IMG/VR virus record: IMGVR_UViG_3300025000_000371
Coordinates: 1 to 26,908 of that record
From: a virus
Strand: one strand, 5' to 3'
Length of the DNA: 26,908 bases
Within the stretch, counting starts at the first letter, position 1. Each line of letters starts with the position of its first letter. Of the stretch, positions 13,065 through 24,453 are shown piece after piece. The position numbers and the translations under genes were made by a program. The notes below the pieces were generated by a model that had not been told where the DNA came from, did no database searches, and worked only from the letters and a program-made list of their open reading frames with translations.

Positions 13065-15026
13065 TTACGCAACTAAAAATATTATTTGTTTTAATTTATT
13101 TTTAACTCCCTGTAAATTATATCTTAAATCTTCTGGATATAAATCAATTAATATAATTTCATTATCATTACATATTTTTATTTTTTCTTGCATCTTAACT
13201 TTATAAAAATCTTTCTTTGGCATACCAAAAAATTCTACTATGATATTATCATTAATCAACCAATCCATCCTTTTTAAACCACATCTTTTATCATCAATTA
13301 AATCTCTATATAAATATTCTTTAATATAATACATATTAATATCAATCATATAATTAGTAATTATTAACTCTGCTTTAGATAAACATATATCATTATTATT
13401 GGATAAATATATTTTCTTATTATAAATACTATTGCTATTTAATTCTAATCCTGCTTCAATACATGCTTCTCTGTATCCACCAAAATATCTTATATATGTA
13501 ACTATACCTGGCATATCTTTATTATCCGTAATCTCTTGTCCTAAAGGTGTTCTACCCAATTCATTTGCAAAATTTTTAAGAGCAATTATAACATCTTTTT
13601 TATTATCTTCGTGTTTTTGTATAAAATAATCACTAGAATAATCTTTACGTATATTTAATTTCATTGCCATATTTATTAATTGAGTAATTTTCCTACCAGG
13701 GAATAATTTAATTAAATCCTTATTATCTATACAAGCATATTTTTCTTTTAATATATTTATTTCTTGTTCATCCCATTTATTAGATTCAGATATTCCTAGT
13801 TTATATGCTTTTGTTGTAAGAGATTCATATGTACGATTAGGAAATAATATTAATAATTTTTGTGGAGATAAATTATTATAATTTTCTTTTAATAAATCAA
13901 TTTCTTCATCTGTCCAATAATAATTTTCTCTTTGTATATTTAATTTAGATGCTTTTTGGCATATTTCATCTTTGGTAAATGGTTTTAATAATTCAATTAA
14001 TATATACCATTCTTCATAAGGGTATTTTTCTTTAAGAATTTCTATTTGTGTTTTAGTCCATCTATCATTTCTTTTATTTATTCCAAGTTTATTTATTATA
14101 TTACATATACTTGCTCCATCATTATAACCATATTTTTTAGCAATCTCATTTAATTCCATATTATTTAGATAATCATTTTTAATTCCTTCATAATCTTTGT
14201 TGCAATATGTACCATTGGAATTCAAAACTCGTAATCCCATTTTATTAGCTTTATGTCTTATTACTGTTTCTGTTCTTTTAATCATTAATAATTTTTGTAT
14301 TTTTTCTATTTCATTAGATGGATAATAATCAATTAATACTTGTTCATCACACAAATACCATTCATCTTCTCCTAAAATATTAATTAATTTTAAAAAATCA
14401 TTCCAAGTGCCAAAACTTCTTTGATATACTCCAACATCTGGATAACCATTTTTCTTTTTCATTTCTTTTCCTAAAGGGTATTTATCATTTTCTTTATAAA
14501 ATCTCCAAAATTCACTTATTAAAAAATCATTACTATATTTAAAAACTCTCCTTAATTTTTCATGTTCTCTTTTTGTTTTAATTTGTTTTTCTGTTTTACT
14601 TCCTAATGCTGTAGCGATTTCACTATCAGTCATATTTAAATAATTTTCTTTTAAAAATTCAAATTCTTCATTTGTCCATATATTCGCTTTTATTTTAATT
14701 CCTGATTTATTTAAAATTAAAATAATATTATTCTTTTTTAAATTATATTTTATTACTAAATCATCTAATGACATACCATTTTTATAATCATTCTTAATAT
14801 TATTATGTATTATATTTATATTTTCATTAAACGATTTAAAACCTAATAAATGAAATGCTTCTTTTAAAGAACCAAATTTTGTTTTATAAATTGATGCACC
14901 TAGATAATTTTTATTTTTATCTAACTTTCTTCGAGTTGGTACTTCTCCAAACTCATTATAATATCTTTTTAATTCATTAATTAAAAATTCATCAGTATGT
15001 TCACTTTTGATATTTTGTTTACTCAT
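13065..15026 (-). CDS. Modular homing endonuclease: HNH-associated repeats, Myb/SANT-like repeats and a PD-(D/E)XK-like nuclease end
   Basis: Numbering is from the TTG at 15032 (655 residues); the ATG at 15026 is the likelier start, though spacing from GGAG is 11 nt versus 5 nt for TTG. Residues 13-66, 168-220 and 479-530 match the homing-endonuclease-associated repeat pattern (PF18780 type). About five Myb/SANT-like helical repeats beginning W-T-x-x-E follow at about 118, 225, 325, 373 and 420, and two short helix-turn-helix units lie at 81-114 and 284-321. The C-terminal 110 residues carry E555, D590 (RMDW), E600 (IIVEFFG) and Lys at 611/613, which suggests a restriction-endonuclease-like fold of the kind in Vsr-related homing enzymes. 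It lies next to the conserved tape measure gene, as free-standing homing genes often do. Domain architecture is confident, the catalytic assignment less so. Confidence 0.8.
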   Translation of the reverse strand: MSKQNIKSEHTDEFLINELKRYYNEFGEVPTRRKLDKNKNYLGASIYKTKFGSLKEAFHLLGFKSFNENINIIHNNIKNDYKNGMSLDDLVIKYNLKKNNIILILNKSGIKIKANIWTNEEFEFLKENYLNMTDSEIATALGSKTEKQIKTKREHEKLRRVFKYSNDFLISEFWRFYKENDKYPLGKEMKKKNGYPDVGVYQRSFGTWNDFLKLINILGEDEWYLCDEQVLIDYYPSNEIEKIQKLLMIKRTETVIRHKANKMGLRVLNSNGTYCNKDYEGIKNDYLNNMELNEIAKKYGYNDGASICNIINKLGINKRNDRWTKTQIEILKEKYPYEEWYILIELLKPFTKDEICQKASKLNIQRENYYWTDEEIDLLKENYNNLSPQKLLILFPNRTYESLTTKAYKLGISESNKWDEQEINILKEKYACIDNKDLIKLFPGRKITQLINMAMKLNIRKDYSSDYFIQKHEDNKKDVIIALKNFANELGRTPLGQEITDNKDMPGIVTYIRYFGGYREACIEAGLELNSNSIYNKKIYLSNNNDICLSKAELIITNYMIDINMYYIKEYLYRDLIDDKRCGLKRMDWLINDNIIVEFFGMPKKDFYKVKMQEKIKICNDNEIILIDLYPEDLRYNLQGVKNKLKQIIFLVA

Positions 15027-15126
15027 AAACAAACCATCTCCTTTAATTTATTATTTTATTAATCTAACAATACTAATTAATCTACCAACCAACCTTTACT
15101 CCTCAATAATCAAATTAAAAAATAAA

Positions 15127-15636: not shown

Positions 15637-15710
15637 AAACCCTTATAAATAGTACGTTTACAACACCTCAAAAATTCAAAAATCATGACAAATGAGGATT
15701 TTATGTTGAT
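15637..15710. other. att-like element A at the integrase 3' end
   Basis: AAACCCTTATAAA (15637-15649) lies within an imperfect inverted pair with GTTT at 15656-15659 and is followed 41 bp from its start by AAAATCATGACAAAT, then GGATTTTATGTTGAT overlapping the integrase stop. The same blocks occur in the same order and orientation at 24575-24685. The layout could suit a tyrosine-recombinase core site, since attP commonly abuts the integrase gene. This is inference. Confidence 0.35.
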
Positions 15711-16726
15711 TTCATATTTTCTAATTCTTTATTTTTATTCATTAAATTTTTAATTTTATCTCTAACTTGTGCCTTACTTATTGGTTTAATATATGCAGAC
15801 CTCGTAGTTTCCGTACTCTTATGATTACCCATTTCGGCAGCTAACGACAAATCTCCCGTTTTTTCGTAAATATTATTCAATGCACTCTTTCTTACGCAGT
15901 GACAATGAAAATCATCTAATCCAATAATAGTACCTATTGCTGTAATTCTCCTTTGTAATGAACCTTTACTCATTTTACGATAAACTTTACCATAATAACT
16001 AATAAATAATGCATCTACTTCAAGATTATCAATTTCTTTTCTCTTCTCAAACCACTCTTGAATCAAAACTAATGTTTCTTCTGATATACTCACTTCAACC
16101 AGATAGCCTCTTTTCTCCCTTATATTTGTAAATACACAATTCTCTATATCTAAATCACTTATTTTAAGTTTCTCTACAGCACCAATTCTATTAGCACTAT
16201 CTAATAAAACTTCAAATAATAACTTATCAATAATATCAAATCTCTTTTCATTCTTTAATCCTTCACGAATTTCTTCTATTTGATCATCGTTCAAGAAATA
16301 TGAATTAATAATTCTTTCTTCACTAGCACCTTTCATTCTATCTAATTTCTTATCGAATGGATGCCTATCAATTAATCCACGTTTCATAGACCATAAATAG
16401 AATGTAGATACAGCAGCAATTTTATTATTAATAGTTTTCTTATTATTCTTTAAAGTATCTTGACAAAAACTAATAAAACTTTCCATTATATCAATTGCAT
16501 CAACAAATAAATCATCAGAATATAAATCTATATTATTCCATTCTTCAGATAGAAATACCATGAATTGCATAAAATTACTTGCATAGGTTTTGAAAGTGGT
16601 ATCTTCAACATCCTTATTCTTAATAATACTAGATTTAAGATACTTTTGATATTTAGCAATATTTGTTGGATTAATCTTTGCTTGTTTTTCTTTAGTGAAA
16701 TACTTTACTTTTGTTATTTTAGACAT
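15701..16726 (-). CDS. int: Tyrosine recombinase / phage integrase
   Basis: A 341-residue site-specific recombinase of the XerC/D-like size class, lacking a long AP2-type arm-binding extension. The SAM-like core-binding region covers about residues 20-125 and the catalytic domain about 140-325. Catalytic residues are visible in the correct order: R180 (NRIGAVEKL), K205, H276 and R279 (H-C-V-R), H302 (GNHKS) and the nucleophile Y312. The frame opens at 16807, but the ATG at 16726 has an AAGGATG site 9 nt upstream, while the 27-residue extension has none. It probably integrates and excises this phage or a module within it. The candidate site A overlaps its 3' end. A leader hairpin lies at 16777-16804. 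Confidence 0.93.
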   Translation of the reverse strand: MSKITKVKYFTKEKQAKINPTNIAKYQKYLKSSIIKNKDVEDTTFKTYASNFMQFMVFLSEEWNNIDLYSDDLFVDAIDIMESFISFCQDTLKNNKKTINNKIAAVSTFYLWSMKRGLIDRHPFDKKLDRMKGASEERIINSYFLNDDQIEEIREGLKNEKRFDIIDKLLFEVLLDSANRIGAVEKLKISDLDIENCVFTNIREKRGYLVEVSISEETLVLIQEWFEKRKEIDNLEVDALFISYYGKVYRKMSKGSLQRRITAIGTIIGLDDFHCHCVRKSALNNIYEKTGDLSLAAEMGNHKSTETTRSAYIKPISKAQVRDKIKNLMNKNKELENMKST

Positions 16727-16776
16727 TAAAAGCACATCCTTATATTTTATTTTATTTTTGTTTTTATAGTAGGGTA

Positions 16777-16804
16777 GAGAGCAGTAATTAAATATACTAC
16801 TCTC
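16777..16804 (-). promoter_or_regulatory. Leader hairpin upstream of the integrase
   Basis: A 9-bp stem with one G-T pair (16777-16785 with 16796-16804) and a 10-nt loop, between the BRO-N gene stop and the integrase start. No T-run follows on the minus strand, so it looks like a leader or processing structure and not a terminator. Confidence 0.45.
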
Positions 16805-16812
16805 CAAAATAT

Positions 16813-16835: not shown

Positions 16836-17924
16836 TTAATCTACATTTCTAATATGGTAATAGATCTTCCCATCTTTATAATTATCAACATCCATATTTT
16901 TTTCTATAATTATTTTATCAATTATATTATCATTTTCTCCATATTCCCTTGTAATTATCTGATCTACGATTCCTTTTGTAAGATTTTGAACATCAAAGGA
17001 TTTCTTACAATCAAATTTTAAAAATACAATAATAGATTTATCCCAATCTACATTTAATTCTTCTTTGGGAGTCAATTGATGCGAAGGGAAGTTTTTAATC
17101 CAATTATTATATGTATTTGTTTTTACAGTAATATTTTTATTTGTATAATTACTCTTAACTGTCTCATAAAGGTAATTTTCAGAAATTCCATGAACATCTA
17201 AAATTATATATTTAGACATAGGAGGATTTAAATTAGCAATTACATCTTCTAATTTGGAAATAACTTTATTCTTATATGAAAGCATTTGTCCTCTACTTTT
17301 ATTTCCTGTTTCTTTTTGTTTCTTAATTATGTCATTTGTAACTTCTGCAACTGCCAAAGCAAATGAACCTTTACCATTATCAATTAATGCCTGTTTTCTA
17401 TCATTTAAGGAATTAATAATAATACTTTGAATAGAATTCTTTTCTTTACCATCTTTATTTTTATGATAAATCATACATTCTTTAAATTCTTGGTCTATTG
17501 ATTCTAAATTACAATTCTTAAAAGTATTTCTTATTCTCTTATTAGTAGAATATTTATCAAGTTTAGTTTCTTGCTCTTCAGTAATATATTTAGATACATA
17601 CGCACCATTTTGTCTAAGTGAAGGTAGTACATCTTCAAATGCCCATTTCTCGAATTTTTCTGCTTCTGGCAATTTTGATTTTATTATAAGTCTATAAACA
17701 TCTCCTTCAGGTATTAAAGATATTTCATTTCCTCCATCTTTAAAGTTGTCGTTTTTTACGACACCCTTACAATGTCTAATAATAGCATCTCTTGGGTTGC
17801 TATAACCTAAAATATTTGCAATATCTTTTGCAATAAAATAATCCTTACCATCAATAGTAACCATTCTTAATTTCCCTAATTCTCCTGTAAACACTTGAAT
17901 TTCATTTTTCTTTTCCATAATCAA
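16836..17924 (-). CDS. BRO-N domain antirepressor-like protein fused to a RusA-like Holliday junction resolvase domain
   Basis: A 362-residue protein. Residues 10-110 form a typical phage BRO-N domain (F-x-A-K-D-I-A-x-I-L-G-Y and the later W-A-F-E-D-V-L-P-S-L-R), usually a DNA-binding part of antirepressors. The middle, 115-235, is basic and helical. Residues about 237-355 look like RusA, the branch-specific Holliday junction nuclease: D311, N314, K317, D321 and D332 keep the same spacing as D70, N73, K76, D80 and D91 of Escherichia coli RusA. The second catalytic Asp (D72) is Gln313 here, so activity is uncertain. A TTG at 17924 has better spacing (7 nt) from AAAGGAG than the ATG at 17918 (13 nt). 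A structured leader precedes it. The BRO-N call is firm, the RusA call strong but from motif spacing only. Confidence 0.85.
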   Translation of the reverse strand: MIMEKKNEIQVFTGELGKLRMVTIDGKDYFIAKDIANILGYSNPRDAIIRHCKGVVKNDNFKDGGNEISLIPEGDVYRLIIKSKLPEAEKFEKWAFEDVLPSLRQNGAYVSKYITEEQETKLDKYSTNKRIRNTFKNCNLESIDQEFKECMIYHKNKDGKEKNSIQSIIINSLNDRKQALIDNGKGSFALAVAEVTNDIIKKQKETGNKSRGQMLSYKNKVISKLEDVIANLNPPMSKYIILDVHGISENYLYETVKSNYTNKNITVKTNTYNNWIKNFPSHQLTPKEELNVDWDKSIIVFLKFDCKKSFDVQNLTKGIVDQIITREYGENDNIIDKIIIEKNMDVDNYKDGKIYYHIRNVD

Positions 17925-18033: not shown

Positions 18034-18104
18034 ACAAAAATACCCACCACAAATAAATGTGATAGTCATTGTTCTGCAATAAATTAATCTACAATAAAAT
18101 AAAA

Positions 18105-18133
18105 AGAGAGCAGGGAATAATCCCAAACTCTCT
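18105..18133 (-). terminator. Rho-independent terminator after the HU gene
   Basis: AGAGAG (18133-18128) pairs with CTCTCT (18110-18105), and an inner GGGA/TCCC helix closes a TTAT loop. TTTTATTTT follows on the minus strand. It ends the HU transcript about 80 bp after the stop. Confidence 0.85.
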
Positions 18134-18212
18134 AGTTAATTATATTGCTATTTAGTTATCTTGCTATAATATCAAAATATTAAACTGTTAAACTATGTAT
18201 ATTCTTTAGCAC

Positions 18213-20292: not shown

Positions 20293-21810
20293 CTATATTA
20301 TCTTCTTATTCTTATATAACTTATTAACTTCTCTATATTGATAATCAGGTAGTATATTCTTTATTTCTTTCTTATTAAACAAACTTACAATACAATTATT
20401 ATATTCATCATTTAAATTAACTATATCATTTTTAATTATGTATTCTTGATTACTTTTATTATTTGTGTTAATCACACTATTACTTATTATGTATTTATTA
20501 GGTAAACTCATATATTTTCCACAGTGTTGATTCTTCCTAGTTATAATTATTTCATTTTCATTTGCTAATTCTACTATATATTTAGATATTGAATCATTTG
20601 ATATATTAACACTTTCTGCGATTTGTTTATATGTCATGTAAAATTCACCATTATTGATCGCATATCTCTTTGCATGAATGATTAACGCATAAAACAATAA
20701 CTTTTTAGGTTTCTCTTTATATTTAATAATCTCCATCATTTCATCTCTATTAATAGAAATATCTCTAACTTCACCTTTTATTCCTCTATTATTTTCATAA
20801 ACAAACTTAATAATATTTTTAATATCTCTTAGATATTCTCTTTCTGGAGTTTTATAATAATCTCTACTTTGCTTAGACATCCATTCAATTAGTAATTTCT
20901 CATTTTCTTCTTTATCATAACCTAAATGATTATAATATCTAGCAATTTTCATTAATGAATGATGTCTTGAACCTAATATAGTTAAACCATTTTCAATAAG
21001 ATTTTCTATGTATTCAATAGTATATTCTGCATCAATATATAAATTTTGAGAATTTGCAGGTTTAGATTTGTTTTTAATCTCATCATTAAAATAATTAATA
21101 TTTTGTCTTTCTTTTCTTGATTGTTTTGCTTTATCAAATACTATGTCAAGAAATTCTCTTGGTAATTGATTAATTTGATATAAATATTCTATTGATTTTA
21201 TATGTTCTAAATTATTATCAATATCACAAAAATAACATTTCTTTTTAGTAACTTGATGGATGCTCAATTCTAGTTTTACACCATAATTATTCTTTGGACG
21301 TAATTCAATTTTTTCTTTTAATTGTAATAATGAATATTTCCAATCCATATCTAATACTTTCAATACTCCATAATCAATAGAATAGTATAATTCTTCAATT
21401 ATTAAATCATATAAAAATTCTATTTGTTTATAACTTACTACATTATCAAAAAATACTAACACATGATAACCTTTCTTTCCAGAAAAACTTGCATTAATAT
21501 ATTTATCTTCAATTCCATATTGTTTAAATATATTAATAATCTTATAAGTTACCCATTTTGCTTGATTCAAATCTTCTCCAAAATCTACATCTATACATAT
21601 AAATTTTGTATGAGTATGACAAAAAACACCTACAGTTTGTTTTGACTGTAAGTGTCTAATCAAAATATTTTTATTATCTTTTAAATTTCCCCACTTATAT
21701 ATCCATTCATAATCTCCATTAGGTTTTTGTATTATAAAAGGATAATAGGTAGTTACATATAATTCATACATCTTATCTGCTAATTTTTCGTAATTAATTT
21801 TAGTTACCAT
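20293..21810 (-). CDS. Archaeo-eukaryotic-type (AEP) primase with C-terminal winged-helix region
   Basis: A 505-residue protein. Residues about 10-200 carry AEP motifs: I-D-V-D with D74 and D76 (metal binding), S-G-K-K-G-Y-H with H116 (nucleotide binding), and a later L-S-I-H-x-x-T-x-K-K segment about residue 182 that fits the third core region of TOTE/plasmid-type AEPs. Residues about 260-345 are helical and resemble the all-alpha domain that often follows the primase. Residues about 370-435 contain a winged helix (Y-K-Q-I-A-E-S-V-N-I-S-N-D-S-I-S-K-Y-I), probably DNA-binding. It would make primers for phage replication; no helicase domain is fused. The ATG has GGAGGT 7 nt upstream and the gene follows the DUF5659-like gene by 16 bp. 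Confidence 0.85.
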   Translation of the reverse strand: MVTKINYEKLADKMYELYVTTYYPFIIQKPNGDYEWIYKWGNLKDNKNILIRHLQSKQTVGVFCHTHTKFICIDVDFGEDLNQAKWVTYKIINIFKQYGIEDKYINASFSGKKGYHVLVFFDNVVSYKQIEFLYDLIIEELYYSIDYGVLKVLDMDWKYSLLQLKEKIELRPKNNYGVKLELSIHQVTKKKCYFCDIDNNLEHIKSIEYLYQINQLPREFLDIVFDKAKQSRKERQNINYFNDEIKNKSKPANSQNLYIDAEYTIEYIENLIENGLTILGSRHHSLMKIARYYNHLGYDKEENEKLLIEWMSKQSRDYYKTPEREYLRDIKNIIKFVYENNRGIKGEVRDISINRDEMMEIIKYKEKPKKLLFYALIIHAKRYAINNGEFYMTYKQIAESVNISNDSISKYIVELANENEIIITRKNQHCGKYMSLPNKYIISNSVINTNNKSNQEYIIKNDIVNLNDEYNNCIVSLFNKKEIKNILPDYQYREVNKLYKNKKII

Positions 21811-23957: not shown

Positions 23958-23974
23958 TATTATATTTACAATCT
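23958..23974 (-). repeat. Copy of the recurring 17-bp motif overlapping the DUF1064-like stop
   Basis: AGATTGTAAATATAATA on the minus strand, one mismatch from consensus; its first base is part of the stop codon of the DUF1064-like gene. Confidence 0.5.
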
Positions 23975-24453
23975 TATTCACTACTTAAATTGTTCTTTAA
24001 CTTTTCCTTTGCTTTCTTCCTTTCTTTTCTACCTTTTTCAATTACTTTTACATCGCACCATCCTTCATTTTCATCATTTCCATCAATTTTACTATAATTT
24101 ATAACTCTTAAAACTTTATCAGGGTAGAGGTAATTCCAAATCTTAGCCTTGAGTAAAAAATCTGGCGTAGAAAATCCTTTTGTGTCGAAATTTATTATAT
24201 CTCCGTTTGTATATTCTACTTCAAAATCAGGAATATAGTAAATTGCTTGATACTTTTTACCATGTTTCTCAAATTTATTTTGTAATAAATATTTGGGTTG
24301 TATTTTTATACTCTTAACTATTCCTTTTTCTTGTTGAGAGAGAAGGTACACATAGAATCTGTATTCCAGATCACTAGAGAAAGTGTATCCGTTTAATGTT
24401 CTTTTTTCTTTTGATTTTGATGATGTATTCACGTTAAATTTTGATCTTGCCAT
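23974..24453 (-). CDS. DUF1064-like PD-(D/E)XK nuclease
   Basis: A 159-residue protein with the DUF1064 layout: a basic N-terminus, F-x-S-D-L-E-Y-R-F (E30), I-Q-P-K-Y (Q52), Y-I-P-D-F (D76) and I-N-F-D-T-K-G (D90, K92), then a helix. E30, D76, D90 and K92 map to the restriction-endonuclease-like active site, with Asp in place of Glu in the D-x-K motif, as is common in this family. Phage members are thought to process recombination or replication intermediates. The C-terminus is very lysine-rich. The ATG has a GGAGTG site 7 nt upstream and a hairpin 40-75 nt upstream. Confidence 0.85.
   Translation of the reverse strand: MARSKFNVNTSSKSKEKRTLNGYTFSSDLEYRFYVYLLSQQEKGIVKSIKIQPKYLLQNKFEKHGKKYQAIYYIPDFEVEYTNGDIINFDTKGFSTPDFLLKAKIWNYLYPDKVLRVINYSKIDGNDENEGWCDVKVIEKGRKERKKAKEKLKNNLSSE

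Follow-up and report, generated by a model that had tools for sequence, protein, structure and literature searches.

A phage protein family with exchangeable N-terminal DNA-binding domains and a RusA-superfamily domain that lacks one canonical aspartate

The stretch of DNA analysed here (the window) spans 26,908 bases and is a fragment from a virus record. It carries siphovirus tail genes, including those for Dit and for a tape measure protein of 2562 aa that includes a peptidase domain, together with replication genes, an HU gene and a tyrosine integrase. On the minus strand, positions 16836–17924 encode a 362-aa protein in which a Bro-N domain and a RusA-fold domain lie in one chain; the reading frame, its strand and the residue numbering agree with the initial annotation. 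Judging from the sequence, the start is ambiguous by two codons: an AAAGGAG site lies ahead of both a TTG at 17924 and an ATG at 17918, the latter giving 360 aa. The Bro-N domain (residues 19–101; 17622–17870, minus strand) scored 70.3 bits against PF02498 in a Pfam hmmscan, where the curated cut-off is 25.6, which places it in that family, and the N-terminal half of the protein also matches PHROG anti-repressor families. A middle region with no named domain in Pfam follows (residues 102–236; 17217–17621, minus strand); it is helical in a model of the full-length protein (pLDDT 76, pTM 0.38). The RusA-fold domain, recognised by fold and profile comparison, occupies residues 237–362 (16839–17216, minus strand) and contains the active-site motif D311-x-Q313-N314-xx-K317-xxx-D321-(10)-D332 (16929–16994, minus strand), equivalent to RusA D70-x-D72-N73-xx-K76-xxx-D80-(10)-D91.

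The fusion gene is probably transcribed on its own, because strong predicted hairpins flank it on both sides: a terminator-like one between the HU gene and the fusion gene (18090–18135, minus strand; -16 kcal/mol, z -5.5) and another between the fusion gene and the integrase (16765–16812, minus strand; -17.1 kcal/mol, z -5.3). The integrase (15701–16807, minus strand) is the downstream neighbour. Its annotated TTG at 16807 sits at the second hairpin, and from the sequence the true start is probably an alternative ATG near 16726 (MSKITKVK; 16726–16807, minus strand). Adjoining the integrase is a gene for a 655-aa protein with repeats associated with homing endonucleases (HNH; 13065–15032, minus strand). 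Elsewhere in the window, positions 20293–21810 (minus strand) encode a primase-like protein whose relative in L001 (33% identical) matches the archaeo-eukaryotic primase domain of TOTE systems. In seven related loci (L005, L006, L007, L009, L013, L014 and L018) a small gene of 64–77 aa (cluster C1, phrog_31036) lies directly upstream of the fusion gene and is a possible partner for it.

RusA is a dimeric, Mg-dependent junction nuclease. When the whole fusion protein was scanned (hmmscan, Pfam, E ≤ 1), no RusA match appeared. Residues 237–362 alone matched PF05866 with 18.7 bits (E 0.0028), under the curated cut-off of 22.8 bits; the same family was matched by 16 of 17 homologous C-terminal domains (best E 4.8e-5), and in a profile search of the relatives' records two homologues passed the cut-off. 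A profile-profile alignment (hhalign) against 14 diverse RusA proteins gave E 3.4e-6 and set D311, Q313, N314, K317, D321 and D332 against RusA D70, D72, N73, K76, D80 and D91 without gaps, so the proposal that the spacing of the E. coli motif is kept holds in this register. An AlphaFold model of the C-terminal domain, built from 17 homologues, reached a mean pLDDT of 93.3. Its best Foldseek matches in the PDB were the RusA entries 1q8r, 2h8c and 2h8e, and VIA-align superposed it on E. coli RusA (1q8r) with Z 11.2 and an rmsd of 2.5 over 109 residues, compared with Z 5.3 for the best unrelated chain. In a viral structure library, too, the named top matches were mostly RusA-like. By fold and by homology, the C-terminal domain belongs to the RusA superfamily. 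The fold and profile comparisons rule out a chance resemblance or a different fold, and they bear out the claim that a BRO-N and a RusA-like domain had been joined in one chain.

We nevertheless withheld the label of RusA resolvase, because D72, a residue that defines the catalytic site, was checked and found absent. Two of the three catalytic aspartates of canonical RusA are present (D70 and D91), and the third, D72, is replaced by Gln313; the counterparts of the catalytic lysine K76 and of N73 and D80 (K317, N314 and D321) are retained. Among the 18 aligned family members, window included, position 72 is Gln in 16, Asn in two (L008 and L009) and Asp in none. The Asp-to-Gln change reported at this position is thus real and common to the family, in which the aligned sequences indicate that replacement of Asp72 is fixed. 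A sequencing accident at Gln313 is ruled out, since 16 of the 18 members have the same residue. Every family member keeps the equivalents of D70, N73, K76, D80 and D91; in one alignment the D91 column is only nearly invariant, owing to the placement of the distant L023 row. Throughout the family, down to relatives with 28–34% identity, the invariant positions include the same ones as in the RusA set (S13, N15, D70, N73, K76, D80 and D91). Outside the close family, position 72 is Gln in a Vibrio phage protein and Glu in the Arash pair.

To place this replacement among other RusA proteins, we examined a canonical set drawn from bacterial genomes by a pattern confined to the N-terminal part, which left position 72 free of selection bias: all 69 had Asp72. 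PF05866 matches in a sample from the Chloroflexi phylum likewise had Asp at this position. Many of these (for example L218–L233) carry Gly in place of Asn at N73 (D-x-D-G-G), another fixed variant of the motif. Six phage proteins annotated as, or matching, RusA have Ala, Ser or Asn at position 72: those of Xanthomonas phage XapPhi1, a Cylindrospermopsis phage, Enterococcus phage 9183, Brevibacillus phage Sundance and Geobacillus phage GR1, and the second RusA of L007. All six retain D70, D80 and D91, and the Cylindrospermopsis phage protein has Arg for K76 and Lys for N73. In a diverse RusA set that included five of the six, P11, S13, N15, D70, N73, K76, D80 and D91 were invariant. Loss of Asp72 thus recurs in some phage RusA branches. 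The idea that variation at D72 is commonplace across all RusA proteins is ruled out, Asp being invariant in the canonical and Chloroflexi-phylum sequences and only some phage branches varying.

Two further positions differ from canonical RusA. The basic stretch before D70 (RRRR in E. coli RusA) is absent from the fusion family. E254 (17163–17165, minus strand), the Glu of S-x-N-x-x-Y-E, hardly varies across the Gln/Asn-72 family and its distant relatives; canonical RusA has Arg19 there, and L013 has Gln. Its conservation makes it possible that this Glu of the 'LYE' motif is an acid that compensates for the lost D72.

Nineteen viral loci proved to encode close relatives of the C-terminal domain; further relatives are L023 (itself a relative of a Salmonella-phage protein) and proteins of a Vibrio phage and a Salmonella phage. 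No close viral relative of the Vibrio protein turned up. None was found in plasmids, and with the sequence patterns used no cellular homologue was found in 84,980 species genomes. Between relatives, dN/dS of the C-terminal domain was 0.03–0.19, with dS near saturation in some pairs, which indicates that the domain is under purifying selection. The N-terminal half behaves differently. Of 15 proteins, 7 have the Bro-N type and 6 the Rha type (6–7 Rha overall), and a third, unnamed type occurs in L013 and L021. L013 and L014 are 85% identical at the C-terminus and 28% over the first 110 residues, and L008 and L009 show the same pattern (84% against 26%); for L002 and L015 it is reversed (C-terminus 65%, N-terminus 75%). 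A tree of the C-terminal domain, in which few branches are strongly supported, requires five changes of N-terminal type. The N-terminal domain has therefore been exchanged among relatives. The domain pairing had been called unusual, which is half right: the two domains do share a chain, but the combination recurs in at least seven phage records with Bro-N and in six to seven with Rha, a recurrence in keeping with the modularity already known for phage Bro-N/Rha/KilA-N proteins. L020 has an HU gene upstream and an integrase 98.1% identical to that of the window, and its fusion gene has a Rha-type N-terminus. A GIY-YIG/NUMOD3 homing-endonuclease gene interrupts this fusion gene (L020 1419–3252), about 100 middle residues are missing, and it looks like a broken copy.

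A second resolvase-like gene is present in 6 of 16 records, window included, a lower bound given that the records are fragments. It encodes a DUF1064 protein in the window and two other records and a separate RusA in three. The DUF1064 protein of the window (23974–24453, minus strand) matches a PHROG family named Holliday junction resolvase (E 1.7e-34). The separate RusA-family proteins are 193–200 aa long (L007 5443–6024, L019 6386–6973 and L025 1306–1908); those of L007 and L025 have Asn at position 72, and two of the three genes follow the fusion gene, immediately or at a short distance. These second genes argue against the fusion protein being the only resolvase of these phages, and a specialised rather than a housekeeping role therefore fits it better.

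We propose that the fusion protein acts as a modular, DNA-targeted nuclease, a RusA-superfamily enzyme whose metal site is altered. To this reading we assign a probability of a little under one half (about 0.48). The chain would start with an exchangeable DNA-binding domain, which is Bro-N in this protein but Rha or some other type in relatives, and run through the helical middle region to the RusA-superfamily C-terminus, which would dimerise as RusA does. It might still cut branched DNA (junctions, forks or D-loops) by means of D311 and D332 together with K317, with Gln or Asn substituting for the third carboxylate in the metal site. The N-terminal domain would steer the protein to particular phage or competitor DNA, by analogy with Odn of phage ICP1. 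The strongest argument against catalysis is that D72 is held to be essential in the E. coli RusA literature, and the literature searched yielded neither a characterised RusA that is active while lacking Asp72 nor a paper on RusA D72 mutants. On the other hand, phage RusAs with Asn, Ser or Ala at position 72 keep most of the remaining site, so the position does change in other natural proteins. The strongest argument for catalysis is that K76 is invariant alongside D70 and D91, and it is this invariance that leads us to favour an altered but active site; K76 is called a catalytic and not a DNA-binding residue in the title of Bolt 2000, as cited in PMC3485210.

Several other readings were weighed against this one. 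In the main rival, the protein may bind junctions without cleaving them, catalysis having died with the third carboxylate and the N-terminal domain serving to place or regulate the complex; a binder of this kind and an altered metal site were the two consequences offered in the initial annotation. In favour of the rival, the position invariant as Asp in canonical RusA has become Gln or Asn throughout the 18 family members, the basic residues ahead of D70 have gone as well, and E. coli RusA D70N was crystallised with DNA (2h8c), which shows that an inactive RusA can bind DNA. A dead enzyme would however be expected to lose some of K76, D70 and D91 over such divergence, and all three are invariant. 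We regard non-cutting binding as possible but doubtful. It seems to us unlikely that the protein is an ordinary regulator of the antirepressor type whose RusA fold is just a dimerisation or partner-binding module. The anti-repressor PHROG matches of the N-terminal half speak for this reading, as does the usual annotation of Bro-N/Rha proteins as phage regulators, and Bro-N and Rha proteins are known to swap their C-terminal modules. A scaffold role would, however, leave the invariance of D311, N314, K317, D321 and D332 unexplained; moreover, no repressor gene was recognised beside the fusion gene, and several copies follow closely on lysis genes (amidase, XhlA-like, holin-like).

The suggestion in the initial annotation that the protein regulates, or partners, the neighbouring tyrosine integrase fares worst, and we consider it very improbable. 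The window and L020 do have an integrase gene immediately downstream of the fusion gene, and L006, L007 and L019 have one within 3 kb of it, but this amounts to only 5 of about 17 loci; in the others none was found within 5 kb, or it is some 20 kb or more distant. The window's fusion and integrase genes have a strong hairpin between them, and in L020 the nearly identical integrase accompanies a fusion gene that is broken and carries a different N-terminal domain.

The altered-nuclease reading can be set beside known systems. E. coli RusA (Rac prophage; PF05866; 1q8r, 2h8c, 2h8e) shares its fold with the whole C-terminal domain, along with the motif spacing and residues D70, N73, K76, D80, D91 and the N-terminal S13 and N15. 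The fusion protein departs from it in having Gln at D72, Glu at R19 and no RRRR before D70, and whereas E. coli RusA stands alone, the fusion domain sits behind Bro-N or Rha. Other phage Bro-N/Rha/KilA-N proteins (anti-repressor PHROGs; PF02498, PF09669) have the same kind of N-terminal domain and the same habit of exchanging modules, but unlike them the fusion protein has a RusA-like C-terminal module. Hypothetical proteins of Vibrio phage D69 (P0003) and Salmonella phage Arash (P0002) share this C-terminal domain, 28–34% identical to that of the window and with position 72 occupied by Gln or Glu, behind different, unnamed N-terminal halves. G44P of Bacillus phage SPP1 is likewise phage-encoded and longer than its RusA domain, which forms the C-terminus, and it is an active RusA-type enzyme, proven as a junction and D-loop nuclease; the passages of PMC3485210 on which these statements draw do not call its N-terminal extension (about 104 aa) Bro-N or Rha. 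Odn of phage ICP1 is a chimeric RepA_N-T5orf172 nuclease whose captured DNA-binding domain aims it at satellite origins (PMC8263062). The overall plan is the same, with a swappable phage or satellite DNA-binding domain ahead of a nuclease domain, but the DNA-binding and nuclease families are others, and for Odn the satellite-origin target is known. The architecture of the fusion protein fits an Odn-like plan, and exchange of its N-terminal domain is seen among relatives.

No paper describing the pairing of Bro-N or Rha with RusA was found in the literature searched, and a RusA-superfamily domain that lacks one canonical aspartate and stays constant while the phage DNA-binding domains in front of it are exchanged is apparently an undescribed variant. 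RusA active sites have so far been read through three aspartates, and a natural family in which one of these is fixed as Gln or Asn and the others are retained offers a clean test of that residue's role. In its fullest form, which we think rather unlikely, the proposal would be of a phage nuclease family with a site of two carboxylates plus Gln or Asn, cutting forks or junctions at loci chosen by swappable Bro-N or Rha domains, for example against competing phages or satellites. If the enzymes are active, phages would be aiming structure-specific nucleases with the same exchangeable domains that they use for regulators, in parallel with Odn of ICP1.
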